From Bartonella sp. CM31XJBT (GTDB lineage: Bacteria > Pseudomonadota > Alphaproteobacteria > Rhizobiales > Rhizobiaceae), in the NCBI RefSeq assembly GCF_028618555.1, contig NZ_JAQITD010000012.1, positions 1 through 64,000 on the forward strand: 64,000 bases of DNA, in the 5' to 3' direction. The notes beneath the pieces are model-generated. The model was not told where the DNA came from. It made no database searches and saw only the letters and a list, made by a program, of their open reading frames with translations. Shown here piece by piece: positions 36,769-45,083 of the stretch; positions within the stretch are counted from its first letter, which is position 1, and each line of letters starts with the position of its first letter. The position numbers and the translations under genes were made by a program.

Positions 36769-36966
36769 TTCACGTAAATTGTGAGAGAGTGTATTAAGAG
36801 AATAAAAGCAAATTTAACGAGTTTGAAGAGCAATGTTATTGCTATTTCTGGTTTGGGTAAAGCATTTACGTAAGCAAAAGACATAAGATAATTCTGTCAT
36901 GTTATTTTGCAGACTTAAGTTCAAAAAGTGCATATCCGTTTTATATATATCCATGGAGGAATTACT

Positions 36967-38427
36967 GTGGCAAATCTTTATGATGTAATTGTGATTGGAT
37001 CAGGTCCAGGCGGATATGTAACCGCAATTCGTGCAGCACAATGTGGCTTTAAGACTGCGATTGTTGAACGTGAACATTTGGGAGGGATCTGTTTAAATTG
37101 GGGATGTATTCCAACAAAGGCCCTTCTACGTTCAGCGGAAATGAAACATTTTGCTGAACATGCGAAAAATTATGGACTAAAAATTAATGGTTCCATTGAG
37201 GCAAACATCAAAGATGTTGTGGCACGTTCACGCGGTGTTTCAGCACGTTTAAATGCTGGTGTTGATTTTCTAATGAAAAAAAACAAAATTGATATTATTT
37301 GGGGTGAAGCAAAGCTTACTAAAGAAGCAAAGGGAAGCCATCCTGCGGAAATTATGGTTTCTTCATCCTCCAAGCCGATTATGCAACCGCAAAATCCAGT
37401 CCCTAAAGGGACGTTAGGGGAGGGAACTTATCAAGCAAAACATATCATTATTGCAACAGGTGCACGTCCTCGTGTCCTTCCTGGTATTGAGCCAGATGGA
37501 AAACTCATTTGGACTTATTTTGAAGCTATGATACCGTCATCAATGCCAAAATCGCTTTTGGTTATAGGGTCTGGGGCTATTGGCATTGAATTTGCCTCTT
37601 TTTACCGTGATATGGGGGCGACAGTAACTGTTGTTGAAATGATGCCCCATATCATGCCTGCTGAAGATATTGAAATTTCAATGTTTGCTCGTAAACAGTT
37701 AGAGAAAAGAGGTTTACGCATTCTTCGTCAAGCAAAAGTAACAAAGGTTGAAAAGTCTTCCGATTCTGTGACTGTACATATTGATGTTCAAGGTAAAATA
37801 GAGACAATAACTGTTGACCGGTTAATTTCCGCTGTAGGGGTGAAAGGTAATATTGAGAATCTTGGTTTAGAATCTTTGGGAATAAAAACCGATCGCGGGT
37901 GCATTGTAACTGATGAATGGAGTTGGACGGGGGTGGAAGGCATTTATGCTATTGGTGATGTAGCAGGTCCTCCTATGTTGGCCCATAAAGCAGAAGAAGA
38001 AGGAGTGATATGTATTGAGCATCTTGCAGGTTTGAAGAGTGCTCATCCGCTTGATAAAAGAAAAATTCCAGGGTGTACATATTGTACACCACAGGTTGCC
38101 TCTGTAGGGCTTTCAGAAGCGGCTGCAAAAGAAGCAGGTTATGATATACGTATTGGTCGTTATTCTTTTGCTGCGAATGGTAAGGCGATTGCTTTGGGTG
38201 AAGATCAGGGGTTAGTAAAAACGATTTTTGATAAAAAAACAGGACAGCTTCTCGGGGCCCATATGGTAGGGGCTGAGGTAACAGAATTGATACAGGGTTT
38301 TGTTATTGCTATGAATCTTGAAACAACAGAAGAAGAATTAATGCATACTGTCTTTCCACATCCGACCTTATCGGAAATGATGAAAGAAAGTGTATTAGAT
38401 GCTTATGGTCAAGTTTTAAACGCTTGA
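36967..38427 (+). CDS. lpdA: Dihydrolipoamide dehydrogenase (E3)
   Basis: 486 residues from GTG 36967, chosen because GGAGGA at 36955-36960 is six bases upstream and the FAD fold (DVIVIGSGPGGYVTAIRAAQ) begins at once; an upstream GTG at 36928 adds 13 unconserved residues. The redox disulfide is in GGICLNWGCIPTKAL, the NAD fold in VIGSGAIGIEFAS and the catalytic His in HPTLSEMM. An insertion near residues 135-152 (PIMQPQNPVPKGTLGEG) is typical of the PDH-linked E3 of this order. It reoxidises the lipoyl groups of pdhB and pdhC. Confidence 0.95.
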   Translation: MANLYDVIVIGSGPGGYVTAIRAAQCGFKTAIVEREHLGGICLNWGCIPTKALLRSAEMKHFAEHAKNYGLKINGSIEANIKDVVARSRGVSARLNAGVDFLMKKNKIDIIWGEAKLTKEAKGSHPAEIMVSSSSKPIMQPQNPVPKGTLGEGTYQAKHIIIATGARPRVLPGIEPDGKLIWTYFEAMIPSSMPKSLLVIGSGAIGIEFASFYRDMGATVTVVEMMPHIMPAEDIEISMFARKQLEKRGLRILRQAKVTKVEKSSDSVTVHIDVQGKIETITVDRLISAVGVKGNIENLGLESLGIKTDRGCIVTDEWSWTGVEGIYAIGDVAGPPMLAHKAEEEGVICIEHLAGLKSAHPLDKRKIPGCTYCTPQVASVGLSEAAAKEAGYDIRIGRYSFAANGKAIALGEDQGLVKTIFDKKTGQLLGAHMVGAEVTELIQGFVIAMNLETTEEELMHTVFPHPTLSEMMKESVLDAYGQVLNA

Positions 38428-39921: not shown

Positions 39922-40498
39922 TCTATTCTGTTATTTTTTAACAATACGTATTGCTTATAACAGCGTGAAGGTGAAAACCGGTTTCCATCTTTACTATTTG
40001 TTTTTAATTCAGCTTTCAAAAGCATATTGAAGGAACATCATTTTAAATGATGAAGATGATGTACAGCTTCACTCTTTTGTTTCTCTCTTTTTTAATGGAT
40101 ACACATCCGTTAAACAGAACGCCCAAATAGAACATACTTGCGTCATACCCATTTCATAATAGTGCTCATAATAAATAGTATAGATCCTTCGTAAAAGCAT
40201 ATAAACTCCACATCTGTACGTTTATGAACAAGTCAGCCTGCACCATTTATTTGCCATCTCTCAAGATGTTGCGCCAGCTCTTAGCACTTGAGAGAGAGGT
40301 ACAAGTGTCCCTTTCTTTAATCATTTTATTTACTACAGTTTTTTTCTCTTGTGGCGTGCAAGTGAATAAATTTGATTAATTCAACCTACACAGGGCTGAA
40401 GTGAGATAACTTTACGCTATTCAGGTCTTTCATTTTCAAGTTGTGGGCGACTATAGACTCAATGTGGAATAGAGAATTTTGAAATTAGTATGGGGAAT
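39922..40498. other. Intergenic gap between two convergent units
   Basis: 577 bp with no gene. It carries copy C of the dispersed repeat at 40239-40410 and otherwise shows nothing recognisable. Confidence 0.5.
40239..40410. repeat. Dispersed intergenic repeat, copy C
   Basis: Blocks: CACCATTTATTTGCC, AAGATGTTGCGCCAGCTC, TTAGCACTTGAGA, CTTGTGGCGTGCAAG, TTTGATTAATTCAAC and GGGCTGAAGTGAGA. The far-left blocks also match copy D at 54385, so the full unit is about 170 bp. The stretch from ATG 40266 happens to be open for 37 codons, but the frame is not conserved in other copies. Confidence 0.6.
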
Positions 40499-40987
40499 TC
40501 AGTGAAGTAATTCCAGAATCATTTTAAAAACATTTTCAACAGTTGCATGGCGGATAGCATTGCGATTAAGATGAGCAAAGTGCATTTCTTTGTGCAGGGG
40601 GGGGTGATTTTTATAAGCTATTGCGCAATGCACAAGTCCTACAGGTTTATCAAGACTTGCACCTCCTGGACCAGCAATCCCTGTTACAGAAACTGCAATG
40701 TCAGCTTGTGAATGTTTTAATCCACCCTCCGCCATTACAAGAGCAACTTCTTTTGAAACGGCACCATAGGTTCTTATAAGTTCAGCACAAACGCCAACAA
40801 GGCGTGTTTTGGATTCATTTGAATAAACAACAAATCCACAATCGAGAACATCTGACGATCCTGCAATATTTGTGAGGCTTGCAGCAATGAGTCCCCCTGT
40901 ACAAGACTCTACAGTTGTTAACAGTAAACCTTTTTGGCGAAAGGTATTAAGGACTTCATGTGCTTGTTTTTCACAAAGATATGTCAT
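40499..40987 (-). CDS. CinA C-terminal family protein (nicotinamide-nucleotide amidase type)
   Basis: 162 residues, the stand-alone C-terminal CinA (PncC) domain without the N-terminal molybdopterin-binding part. Characteristic segments are TVESCTGGLIAASLTNIAGSSDVL, YSNESKTRLVGV and VSVTGIAGPGGAS. Proteins of this type deamidate nicotinamide mononucleotide to recycle NAD. Its ATG overlaps the ispDF stop (ATGA), so the two genes are co-translated. Confidence 0.93.
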   Translation of the reverse strand: MTYLCEKQAHEVLNTFRQKGLLLTTVESCTGGLIAASLTNIAGSSDVLDCGFVVYSNESKTRLVGVCAELIRTYGAVSKEVALVMAEGGLKHSQADIAVSVTGIAGPGGASLDKPVGLVHCAIAYKNHPPLHKEMHFAHLNRNAIRHATVENVFKMILELLH

Positions 40988-42174
40988 TGGGGAATTTCTC
41001 CTGAATAAAGAACGCTCGCTGTTGCAAGAGCAGCAATTCCCTCACCACGACCAATAAATCCAAGCTTTTCATTTGTTGTTGCTTTGATAGAGATTCGATC
41101 AGGTGTCATTGCAAGTATTGTCATAAGATTTTCTGTCATAGCATGACGATAGGGACCAATTTTAGGATTTTCAGCGATAATTGTGATATCAACATTGGCG
41201 ATACGACCATCTGCTTGTTTTATAATATCGAGAGCATGACGGAGAAAAATTTCTGATGATACATTTTTCCATTGAGGATCAGAGGGAGGAAAATGTGTAC
41301 CGATATCTCCAGCACCTTGAGTTGCAAGAAGGGCATCTGTTAATGCATGAAGAGCAACATCCGCATCGGAGTGTCCATTTAATTTTTTATGAAAAGGGAT
41401 TTTTATACCACATAATATAAGAAAATCACCATCTTCAAAAGAGTGAACATCATAACCATTGCCGGTACGGATATCAGGAAACATTTGCATTTTCTTTTGG
41501 AGATATAAATGTGCAGTATTAAAATCTTCATGCCATGTAATTTTTATGTTGTTAGGATCCCCAGGAACGGTACGCATAGGAATTCCAAACCATTCGGCAA
41601 TTGCAGAATCGTCAGTGAATTCTTGTTTGCAAGCTTGTTTTGCTTGTTTATGGGCCGCTAAGATATGTTCAAAGGGAAAACACTGTGGAGTTTGTGCACT
41701 ATAAAGATGGGTACGGGGAATTGTTTCTAAAACATGCTGATTATTTATACGTTTAAGGGTATCAGAGATGGGCAGAACAGGAAGAACACCTTCTTGAGGC
41801 GTGATAGTGTTGTGAATGTTATTAAAAAGCTTGTTTTCAATAAAAGGGCGTGCACCATCATGAATATGCACATATTGGGGGGAAAATTTTTTAAGTGCCT
41901 GAAGTCCATGTAAGGTAGAGATTTGACGTGTATTGCCTCCTTCAACAATAATAAGGCGCTCTTTAAAATCGCCAATAGCTTGTTCACAGATTTGACGATC
42001 TTCTGGATGAATAACAAGGATAATTGTTGTGATAGCTGGATGCTGCAAAAAACAATGCACGGTATGATAAATAATCGGCTTTTGTCCTAGAAGCCGATAT
42101 TGTTTTGGAATTTTATAGGGAGATCCTGCTCTTTCACCCCGTCCAGCGGCTAATATTATTGCTGCAATAGAAAT
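40984..42174 (-). CDS. ispDF: Bifunctional IspD/IspF, apparent ATT start
   Basis: 396 residues if read from ATT 42174. Residues 1 to about 230 are the IspD cytidylyltransferase (IAAIILAAGRGERAGSPYKI) and the rest the IspF cyclodiphosphate synthase (GYDVHSFEDGDFLILCG, LNGHSDADVALHALTDALL); they act at two steps of the MEP isoprenoid pathway. No ATG, GTG or TTG lies in frame between the stop at 42199-42201 and GTG 42060, and starting at 42060 would delete the CTP-binding loop. AAGGAGA (42187-42181, minus strand) is ideally spaced for ATT 42174. It lies 24 bp after rirA and overlaps cinA. Confidence 0.88.
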   Translation of the reverse strand: MSIAAIILAAGRGERAGSPYKIPKQYRLLGQKPIIYHTVHCFLQHPAITTIILVIHPEDRQICEQAIGDFKERLIIVEGGNTRQISTLHGLQALKKFSPQYVHIHDGARPFIENKLFNNIHNTITPQEGVLPVLPISDTLKRINNQHVLETIPRTHLYSAQTPQCFPFEHILAAHKQAKQACKQEFTDDSAIAEWFGIPMRTVPGDPNNIKITWHEDFNTAHLYLQKKMQMFPDIRTGNGYDVHSFEDGDFLILCGIKIPFHKKLNGHSDADVALHALTDALLATQGAGDIGTHFPPSDPQWKNVSSEIFLRHALDIIKQADGRIANVDITIIAENPKIGPYRHAMTENLMTILAMTPDRISIKATTNEKLGFIGRGEGIAALATASVLYSGEIPQ

Positions 42175-42198
42175 ACTTAATCTCCTTGTATTATAATC

Positions 42199-42642
42199 TT
42201 AGTTTTCTTTTTTGTCATTAATTTTAAAATGATTTTGAAAGGATGGTTGTTGTAGATCAGCAAGGGATATCATGGACAACACCTCAAAAAAAGCATTTAA
42301 TGCTTTTTGAAGTGCGGTATTTAAACCACAAAAATCAAACAAGGGGCAAGTTGGTTCTGCAGTATCGAAACATTCTGCTAGGGAAAAGTTGTCTTCTGTT
42401 ACTTTCACAACATCAGCGACTGAAATCTCTGCTGCGGGTTTAGCCAATCTAACTCCACCATTGCGTCCACGCACTGTTTGTATAAAACCTGCTTGAACAA
42501 GCAGCTGAAGGATTTTAAATAAAAAAAGTTCTGAAACGGCATATGCTTTAGCAATTTCTGGAACACGACTGAGAGTTCCCTGATTATCTGCACAATACAT
42601 GAGCATTCGAAGAGCATAATTTGTTTGTTTTGTTAATCGCAT
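42199..42642 (-). CDS. rirA: Rrf2-family iron-responsive regulator RirA
   Basis: 147 residues. An N-terminal winged helix-turn-helix (MRLTKQTNYALRMLMYCADN, VRGRNGGVRLAKPAAEI) is followed by three cysteines (C91, C99, C105 in AECFDTAEPTCPLFDFCGLN) that would hold an Fe-S cluster. This matches RirA, the rhizobial iron regulator that represses iron-uptake genes when iron is sufficient; IscR-like or NsrR-like assignments are less likely. It heads the rirA-ispDF-cinA unit, and a perfect palindrome lies in its upstream region. Confidence 0.9.
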   Translation of the reverse strand: MRLTKQTNYALRMLMYCADNQGTLSRVPEIAKAYAVSELFLFKILQLLVQAGFIQTVRGRNGGVRLAKPAAEISVADVVKVTEDNFSLAECFDTAEPTCPLFDFCGLNTALQKALNAFFEVLSMISLADLQQPSFQNHFKINDKKEN

Positions 42643-42687
42643 CTCATTTCCTTCGTAAAGTATCGTCGAACACAGTCTATTTTAAAG

Positions 42688-42703
42688 ATATTTTGCAAAA
42701 TAT
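42688..42703. promoter_or_regulatory. Perfect palindrome between rirA and ntrY, operator candidate
   Basis: ATATTTTGCAAAATAT is self-complementary over 16 bp, 46 bp upstream of the rirA start and in the divergent promoter region shared with ntrY. AT-rich palindromes are typical targets of iron regulators such as RirA, Irr or Fur, so autoregulation is possible. The specific regulator cannot be told. Confidence 0.45.
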
Positions 42704-42815
42704 AGAAGCTTTTCCTCATTGACTATATTTGCCCTATTTTAAATGTAGTATTAGTATTGTCAATTTTTGCTACAAAAGGTTATATGAGAATAATGGGATA
42801 AGGGTATGTAAGCTC

Positions 42816-45083
42816 ATGACGAATATAACATCTGTGACGAATCTTCAAGACATAGATAAAAATACTTATAACGATGAGTTGTATCGTTTAAGTAAGGTAT
42901 ATATTTTTTTAGGGATTACAATTATTGTATTGGCTTTACTTACGGCCTCTGTTTCGTTTATTATTCTTATTGGATTAACTCCTGTTGTTCCCAGTAGAAC
43001 GGTAACCCTTATTCTTATAGGGATTAATAGTTTTTGGGTTTTAGGGCTTATTGTCATCGTTTTTTATGAGATGATTCCGATCATTCGTGCTTGGCGTTCA
43101 AGGCGTGCAGGATCGCGTCTTCATGTGCGTCTTATTTCATTGTTTGCACTTGTTGCGACAATGCCAGCTGTTGCTGTAGCTCTTGTATCGGGTCCAGCAC
43201 TAAATTTGGGACTTGATCGATGGTTTGATACAACAACGCGGCAAATTGTGGGCTCTTCTATTGATTTAGCAAATGCTTATGCAGATGAAATGCTTCAAAA
43301 TTTAAAAAATTTATCCTACGCGATGGCATTTGCACTTGATAACAAAAAACTCTTAGAACGTAATCCAGCTGAATATAGGATGCAATTGACGCGTCATGCT
43401 ATAGGACGCAATTTGCGTGGTGCATTTTTGTTAAGTTCTAGCGGAGCTATTTTTGTATCGAGTGCTCTTGGTGATGAAGATAAACTGCCAATTCCTCCTT
43501 CTCATCTTATTGAACGTGCAACCAGTGCGAGACCTTTTTCTTTTCAACCAGGCGTTCATGATTATTTTGGTATTATTTTAAAATTTACCAACATTCCAAA
43601 CACATTTTTATATTTGGTGCGTGACGTTGATAAAGGTGTTTTATCTGCTTTGCGTTTGACAGAAGTTAATACAGATCGTTATCGTGATTTAAATGAAAAT
43701 CGCCTGCTGACACAGATTGCATTTGGTATGCTTTATTTGTGTCTTTTTTTTAGTTTATTCTTATCAGCTATTTGGGCTGCTATTGCTGTTGCTGATCGTT
43801 TAGTGCGTCCTATTCGTCTTCTCATTAGTGCTGCCGATGATGTTGCTTCTGGAAATATGGAAATTTTCGTGCCAGTACGAGCAAAAGATGGAGATATTGG
43901 GCAATTATCCAAAACTTTTAATTACATGGTCAGTGAATTGAAAAGTCGGCGTAATGAGTTGATTGCAGTGCGTGATCAAATTGATGAAAGACGGCGTTTT
44001 TCTGAAGCTGTGTTATCGGGTGTAACAGCGGGAGTAGCAGGTATAGATGATAATGGTGATATCACCATTATCAATCGGTCTATTGAAGCGATGTTTGATA
44101 TTCGCTCTGAGCACGTTGTTGGACAAAGTCTTTTATCTTTAAGCGCTGAAATTTGGCAGGTTTTTCAGTTTGTGCGTTCATTAGATCGTAAAAACCATCG
44201 TGAACAGGTCACTTTAAACGTTGCAGGAAAAGAGCGTGTCTGTAATGTTCAAGTTACGATGGAGGAGGATGATGGACAGGGGCAATCTTGGGTTCTAACA
44301 ATTGATGATATTACTGACCTTGTTGCAGCGCAACGTACAGCGGCGTGGGCGGATATTGCGCGGCGTATTGCGCACGAAATTAAAAATCCTCTTACACCTA
44401 TTCAGTTATCCGCTGAACGCATTCGTAAACGTTATAACAAAGCTATTACACAAGATAGAGAGGTTTTTGAGCGGTGTATTGACACGATTATTCGGCAGGT
44501 TGGAGATATTGGGCGTATGGTTGATGAGTTTTCCTCTTTTGCACGTATGCCCAAACCCAAAATGCATATTTTAGATATACGAGAATTGTTGCGCGAAGCA
44601 TGTTTCTTGATAGAGGTGACGCGACATGATATTCATTTTGAGCAAGATTTAGGAACTCTACCACTTATGGGTGCATTTGATAACCGTCTCATTGTACAGG
44701 CTTTCTGCAATGTTATCAAAAACGCGAGCGAATCCATAGATTCAGTTATGCGAGAGGAAAATATTCACGGTCATATTCTTGTCCGTTCTTATCGACAGAA
44801 AGAATGGGTGGTTGTGGATGTTGTTGATAACGGGAAAGGACTTCCTAAAGAGCAAAGACAAAAGTTATTAGAACCCTATATAACAACGCGGGAAAAAGGA
44901 ACAGGACTGGGGTTAGCCATTGTGCGCAAAGTTATTGAAGATCACGGTGGTTTCATGGAGCTTCATGATGCACCGGAGAGTTTTTATGAAGGTCGTGGTG
45001 CGATGATCCGTTTGATATTTCCTGCGGATGGGGGTAAGCAGGGTAATATTATACAAGCCATAAATCATAAGATAGGGGAATAG
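42816..45083 (+). CDS. ntrY: Sensor histidine kinase NtrY
   Basis: 755 residues from ATG 42816; the frame is open to 42729, but the added segment is unconserved and overlaps the promoter region. Three membrane helices at the N-terminus (about residues 30-120) and one near residue 315 frame a periplasmic sensor region. They are followed by HAMP (RLVRPIRLLISAADDVASGN), PAS, and a HisKA domain with the phosphoaccepting His in RRIAHEIKNPLTPIQ. The ATPase has N box NVIKNASESID and G boxes DNGKGLP and GTGLGLAI. It partners with NtrX, which begins 1 bp after its stop. Confidence 0.94.
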   Translation: MTNITSVTNLQDIDKNTYNDELYRLSKVYIFLGITIIVLALLTASVSFIILIGLTPVVPSRTVTLILIGINSFWVLGLIVIVFYEMIPIIRAWRSRRAGSRLHVRLISLFALVATMPAVAVALVSGPALNLGLDRWFDTTTRQIVGSSIDLANAYADEMLQNLKNLSYAMAFALDNKKLLERNPAEYRMQLTRHAIGRNLRGAFLLSSSGAIFVSSALGDEDKLPIPPSHLIERATSARPFSFQPGVHDYFGIILKFTNIPNTFLYLVRDVDKGVLSALRLTEVNTDRYRDLNENRLLTQIAFGMLYLCLFFSLFLSAIWAAIAVADRLVRPIRLLISAADDVASGNMEIFVPVRAKDGDIGQLSKTFNYMVSELKSRRNELIAVRDQIDERRRFSEAVLSGVTAGVAGIDDNGDITIINRSIEAMFDIRSEHVVGQSLLSLSAEIWQVFQFVRSLDRKNHREQVTLNVAGKERVCNVQVTMEEDDGQGQSWVLTIDDITDLVAAQRTAAWADIARRIAHEIKNPLTPIQLSAERIRKRYNKAITQDREVFERCIDTIIRQVGDIGRMVDEFSSFARMPKPKMHILDIRELLREACFLIEVTRHDIHFEQDLGTLPLMGAFDNRLIVQAFCNVIKNASESIDSVMREENIHGHILVRSYRQKEWVVVDVVDNGKGLPKEQRQKLLEPYITTREKGTGLGLAIVRKVIEDHGGFMELHDAPESFYEGRGAMIRLIFPADGGKQGNIIQAINHKIGE

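Follow-up and report, generated by a model that had tools for sequence, protein, structure and literature searches.

An apparent ATT start codon of the fused isoprenoid gene ispDF, conserved across Bartonella and shared with related genera

Introduction

Where does translation of ispDF begin in Bartonella when its open frame holds no ATG, GTG or TTG (NTG) ahead of the conserved IspD N-terminus, and what could keep so unusual a start in place? The question was raised by the window, a stretch of 64,000 nt from Bartonella sp. CM31XJBT (contig NZ_JAQITD010000012.1, positions 1 to 64,000). An earlier note, made from its letters alone, had read ispDF as starting at ATT and had suggested low or autoregulated expression of an essential enzyme downstream of the iron regulator rirA. 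Few non-canonical start codons have been characterized by experiment (PMC5472188). A literature search covering one open-access library found no earlier report of an AUU start for Bartonella ispDF.

Results

The ispDF locus in the window

The features of the locus are collected in Table 1. The rirA stop TAA occupies 42201-42199 and the ispDF open frame starts immediately after it, at 42198. From this stop to the IspD loop the codons read GAT TAT AAT ACA AGG AGA TTA AGT ATT TCT ATT GCA GCA ATA ATA, and the window sequence contains no in-frame ATG, GTG or TTG over this interval. As the earlier note had observed, none precedes the IspD N-terminus; the first in ispDF is GTG 42060, 46 codons in and beyond the LAAGRG loop of IspD, which we take to be nucleotide-binding. 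The window holds 39 largely non-overlapping ORFs of 150 codons or more. In 38 of them a usual start codon follows the preceding stop by no more than 19 codons, and ispDF alone has its first ATG, GTG or TTG farther away than that. Both domains were found, nearly complete, in one chain above the Pfam cut-off (IspD, residues 3-226, E 5.5e-59; YgbB/IspF, residues 235-388, E 1.5e-62), the best match among solved structures was the bifunctional IspD/IspF 1w55, and the nearest named relatives of the protein were those of Bartonella sp. AU18XJBT (96 % identity) and B. grahamii (94 %). The extent originally assigned to the gene, 40984-42198, corresponds to the open frame, of which 42198 is merely the edge, whereas the translated gene runs from 40984 to 42174. 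The strong ribosome-binding motif described ahead of the ATT is present as well, but the 7-base gap given for AAGGAGA applies to AAGGAG, that for AAGGAGA being 6.

Table 1. Features of the ispDF locus in the window
Feature	Coordinates	Strand	Basis or remark
ispDF open frame, stop to stop	40984-42198	-	404 codons
ispDF CDS (fused IspD cytidylyltransferase and IspF cyclodiphosphate synthase)	40984..42174	-	396 codons from ATT, plus stop; reading frame and Pfam
ATT start codon of ispDF (putative)	42172..42174	-	Homologous column in Bartonella; ATG at that column in G142 and G224
Shine-Dalgarno AAGGAG	42182..42187	-	7 bases between AAGGAG and ATT
Leader, untranslated, rirA stop to ATT	42175..42198	-	In relatives, length variable and stop codons inside
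rirA (Rrf2 family), directly upstream of ispDF	42199..42642	-	Pfam Rrf2, E 4.8e-35; the name rirA is that of the earlier note
cinA C-terminal-domain gene	40499..40987	-	Pfam CinA, E 4e-50

Several further features of the region were recorded. In the window, rirA and ispDF lie in one frame with a single TAA between them (42198-42201), an arrangement that varies among species, and readthrough of this TAA would yield a RirA-IspDF fusion. The ispDF stop and the cinA ATG overlap as ATGA (40984-40987), the usual sign of translational coupling. A TATAAT-like box lies at 42195-42190 with ATGACA 17 bases before it; 12 such boxes occur in the region against 8.6 expected. On the forward strand, within ispDF, a terminator-like hairpin of 11 pairs with a T-rich tail is present at 42074-42098, one of six terminator-like sites in 40400-42900 (1.8 expected). 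The RNA folding energy over the ispDF start was unremarkable (z -0.92), and no Rfam family reached its gathering score in 40000-44000. Elsewhere in the window, a 502-codon ORF on the forward strand (36919-38427) has its first ATG 74 codons in, with a GTG or TTG at codon 4.

The start column across Bartonella

We matched ispDF in 70 of 71 Bartonella genomes, the exception being G062 (85 % complete), and read the 5' end in all 70. We took as the start column the codon located seven positions ahead of the L in LAAG. It held ATT in 61 genomes and ATA in nine, and in none of the 70 did it hold ATG, GTG or TTG. A sequencing or assembly error concealing an ATG, the weakness that the earlier note had flagged in its own reading, is excluded by this agreement, which refutes error as the cause of the ATT, and we give it next to no chance. 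A Shine-Dalgarno sequence (at least four bases matching TAAGGAGGT, 6-10 bases before the column) was present in 69 of the 70, with none found in G056.

Other sites of initiation are conceivable. The second ATT (42168) might serve, or in some species an NTG farther upstream; ribosomes might also start in another frame and shift, or read through the rirA TAA, which the common frame and single stop in the window would permit. The second ATT is not conserved, however, its column holding AAT, AAC, GTT, ACT or others in relatives. Readthrough as a general mechanism was rejected, as frames and stops differ between species: in several the interval between rirA and ispDF holds additional stops, and one Bartonella locus (L086, genome G002) has an ATT start and lacks rirA within the 699 upstream bases read. 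Upstream NTGs do occur in a minority, comprising a TTG two codons before the ATT in 5/70 and an NTG four to five codons before the column in 6/70; the latter are, in five genomes, a GTG or TTG beside AAGGGG at a distance of five codons from the column and, in G056, an in-frame ATG four codons before ATA, where neighbours carry the Shine-Dalgarno. The TTGs, though, are variable and touch the Shine-Dalgarno, and in 59/70 genomes the stretch that begins at the preceding stop and ends four codons short of the loop has no NTG at all. In G006 a GTG lies within the strand preceding the loop. In G016, G033, G034 and G027 a single codon separates an in-frame stop from the ATT, leaving no usable in-frame start upstream. 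Judged from these alignments, the absence of a usable NTG start would be doubtful for G056 only, and an alternative start appears very improbable overall.

All nine ATA genomes fell among 13 diverged members of the genus (protein identity 60-64 %; 2.2-2.9 Mb), presumably of bee-gut type. This group also contained G056 and the five genomes with a GTG or TTG beside AAGGGG. ATC precedes ATA in 7/9 of the ATA genomes, so that the start in those seven may be either ATC or ATA, both of the same codon class. Separately, ispDF in G027 (C1:433285-434489, L100) is split into IspD and IspF frames overlapping near residue 235, which may reflect a frameshift, a genuine separation of the two domains or a misassembly.

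The start column outside Bartonella

The search was extended to 151 genomes of the family (two of them Bartonella) and 121 of the order (four from the family), with three genera searched more fully. We looked at 5' ends in 124 non-Bartonella family genomes, among them 111 of the 146 that matched in the family search, and in 43 of the 114 matched order genomes outside the family; the last 40 stretches were chosen partly for open frames beginning near the gene, which favours missing starts. Automatic placement succeeded for 120 family and 32 order genomes, and the 15 others stand outside the counts below; the 11 of these that were read (all but G133, at a contig edge, G274, G193 and G179) each show an NTG. 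None of the 32 placed order genomes lacks an NTG, nor do ten further order genomes. Twelve of the 120 placed family genomes are entirely without one, all of them in genera g7, g6, g51 and g96, and in five more genomes of these genera (G225, G227, G226, G229 and G221) the only NTG is distant or badly placed.

In these four genera the start column held ATT, ATA or ATC in 17/18 genomes: ATA in four, ATC in one and ATT in one of the six g51 genomes, ATT in all seven of g96 and the one of g6, and ATT in three and ATG in one of the four of g7. The comparison with related species that the earlier note had called for thus bears out its reading of the start, both within Bartonella (ATT or ATA in 70/70) and beyond it. 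At the same column, G142 (g73) and G224 (g7) read ATG TCT GTT GCA where Bartonella reads ATT TCT ATT GCA, G148 has TTG, and several members of the order have ATG. An ATG at the homologous column in sister species marks the ATT column as the start, and this homology is the best evidence for ATT 42174 short of protein data. In g27 the ATG stands two codons upstream of the column, and locus L109 has upstream ATGs. The occurrence of ATG in some sister genomes (G142, G224 and g27) indicates that the unusual codon is dispensable.

Some placements within this branch allow other choices. Initiation in g27 may occur at an ATT before its ATG, and in G076 (g7) at an ATA that precedes its ATT by two codons and lies closer to GAGG. 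In genus g17 (G086, G188; L105, L111), the codon immediately before the column is an ATT lying 8 bases after GAGG, and nearby NTGs are only poorly placed; g17 perhaps has a further AUU start at that position.

Relation to rirA

We read the upstream neighbourhood at 14 loci. A rirA-like gene lay just upstream in five of six Bartonella loci and in one locus each of g7, g6, g73 and g27, and a divergent gene, presumably dusB-like, in one locus each of g51, g96, g17 and g64. AUU, AUA or AUC (AUH) starts thus occur without rirA in the upstream stretch read (g51, g96 and G002), and ATG starts occur beneath a rirA-like gene (g73 and g27), so rirA does not explain the start. A start dictated by, or coupled to, rirA was rejected on this comparison, and a special role of the upstream iron regulator is unsupported.

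Possible selection on the codon and its history

Codon constancy was assessed in 56 Bartonella genomes, that is, the 57 outside the diverged group minus G027 with its split gene. Fourteen columns are invariantly isoleucine in this set, and only the start column keeps to a single codon throughout. When the first ten codons were excluded from tree building, it required no change on the resulting tree, against 1-18 for the other 13. The opening codons of genes are usually under constraint, and codons 2 and 4 of ispDF are also frozen in the 56 genomes; zero change was seen at 10 of 143 invariant degenerate columns. The constancy of ATT, ranking first of only 14 isoleucine columns, is therefore suggestive of selection but not strong. 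A firmer indication is that ATT, ATA and ATC interchange throughout the branch, whereas NTG never appears at the Bartonella column. ATA is one transition and ATT one transversion from ATG, yet none of the 70 genomes has made the change, which suggests that something keeps the weak class. In a survey of closely related genomes, change from an ancestral AUG to AUU was recorded at only 1 of 61,358 starts (PMC5622118).

A tree (81 rows, a simple model, many weak forks) placed the AUH genera in two groups within the family, the relation of these groups to each other being weakly supported. Its seven start-codon changes include one that is false, since L236 was labelled AUH and its real start is an upstream ATG. 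The AUH start may have arisen once or twice and reverted to ATG in places.

infC and IF3 in Bartonella

The likening of this start to that of infC proved apt. infC was present in 71/71 Bartonella genomes, and its start position held ATT in 29 of 30 loci loaded (the thirtieth did not match the pattern used), as it did in the window's own genome. This parallel is partly weaker than it appears, because an in-frame ATG follows six codons after the infC ATT in 11 of 19 loci inspected and in the own genome, the other eight having none. Paired infC matches were seen in G042:C1, G051:C93 and G052:C33, spaced by roughly 1.8 kb in G051 and G052 and by roughly 14 kb in G042, and these are possibly duplicated IF3 genes.

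The use of ATT by both infC and ispDF could also mean that IF3 or the initiator tRNA has relaxed fidelity in Bartonella, AUU then being an ordinary start without control. IF3, however, looks intact: that of the own genome aligns over residues 16-178 of 178 to IF3 of solved structures, and its KITLRFRGREMAHQ stretch differs from solved IF3 by at most one residue. AUU starts are also uncommon in the window, since all 38 large ORFs besides ispDF have a usual start codon near the preceding stop. We hold relaxed fidelity to be highly unlikely.

Discussion

Building on the start column, its codon class and conservation, its independence from rirA and an intact-looking IF3, we propose, with a probability of roughly 0.7, that ispDF is initiated at AUU, that this initiation is weak because IF3 discriminates against it, and that selection has held it so. 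Translation would begin with fMet at AUU 42174-42172, positioned by the strong Shine-Dalgarno. The third base of AUU, AUA and AUC pairs imperfectly with the initiator tRNA, which would lead IF3 to eject most of the complexes formed, leaving initiation weak. Selection would have kept the weak codon class in Bartonella and related genera, with slow IspDF synthesis as the outcome. In vitro, raising IF3 to 1.5 uM cut the share of full-length product to 31.1 % when a CAU anticodon read AUU but increased it for matched pairs (PMC10158994).

A simpler account is that the AUU start lowers IspDF output without regulation, a constant low setting that drifted in and was kept as little IspDF is needed. 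The same Bartonella start-codon data fit it, ATG in some sister lineages would mean that the level is adjustable, and Staphylococcus aureus offers a precedent in the AUU start of cvfC1, which showed no effect of medium (PMC13009471). The lack of any NTG in 70 Bartonella genomes, although one base change away, speaks against it, and we regard this account as rather unlikely, though the most serious of the competitors.

If initiation is instead discriminated by IF3 as proposed, the rate of IspDF synthesis would rise when active IF3 per ribosome falls and drop when it rises, and ispDF would share the IF3 set-point of infC, as Bartonella infC also begins with ATT. Low or controlled output is thus the likeliest consequence of the start, as the earlier note had anticipated, but literal autoregulation is impossible for a metabolic enzyme; control by IF3 is a form of regulation that fits one and is offered as a candidate mechanism. 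IF3 is homeostatic in E. coli (PMC5472188), so the effect on ispDF could be constant low output rather than regulation. Only tentatively, then, do we suggest that ispDF is slaved to IF3, coupling isoprenoid precursor supply to the ratio of free IF3 to ribosomes in Bartonella and its relatives. Were this so, a growth-rate sensor at the level of translation would act on an essential biosynthetic enzyme and would have been retained through much of the family branch; the precursors concerned serve bactoprenol, ubiquinone and tRNA prenylation. The AUU, AUA and AUC starts of Bartonella and four genera, set against sisters with ATG, form a natural experiment on the retention of weak starts. Annotation pipelines that accept NTG only would probably truncate or misplace the IspDF N-terminus.

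Among known systems, E. coli infC has an AUU start through which IF3 regulates itself (PMC5472188). ispDF has the same codon class with a Shine-Dalgarno ahead, but infC encodes the discriminating factor and so closes an autogenous loop, whereas the metabolic enzyme encoded by ispDF could only follow IF3. A second AUU gene of E. coli, pcnB, encodes poly(A) polymerase, which, unlike IspDF, is not known to be an essential biosynthetic enzyme. Its AUU start is named in PMC4245954 and in the reference list of PMC13009471, a cited title stating that AUU limits translation, and both genes place AUU on a chromosomal enzyme gene. In Streptomyces, the start of sigR is repressed by IF3 and kept in 34/34 species surveyed (GTC in 32, GTT in two; PMC5472188). 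Like ispDF, sigR is a non-infC gene with an unusual conserved start and a strong ribosome-binding site; it differs in having GTC rather than AUH, in encoding a sigma factor with an anti-sigma partner, and in that its control has been demonstrated experimentally. AUU and AUA starts in S. aureus gave about 10 % of AUG output in poor medium, and ccpN up to 30 % in rich medium (PMC13009471). Staphylococcus ccpN (AUA) and cvfC1 (AUU) share with ispDF a strong Shine-Dalgarno and conservation between species (PMC13009471), but they encode a regulator and a small protein, while AUU, AUA, AUC and AUG replace one another at the ispDF start within a single family. The non-canonical starts met in this analysis were mostly in translation, RNA or regulatory genes. 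As far as sequence comparison can tell, ispDF joins this small class of conserved non-canonical starts, as a general property of the genus as sampled, and it stands out there as a metabolic enzyme gene with an ATG alternative in sister species.
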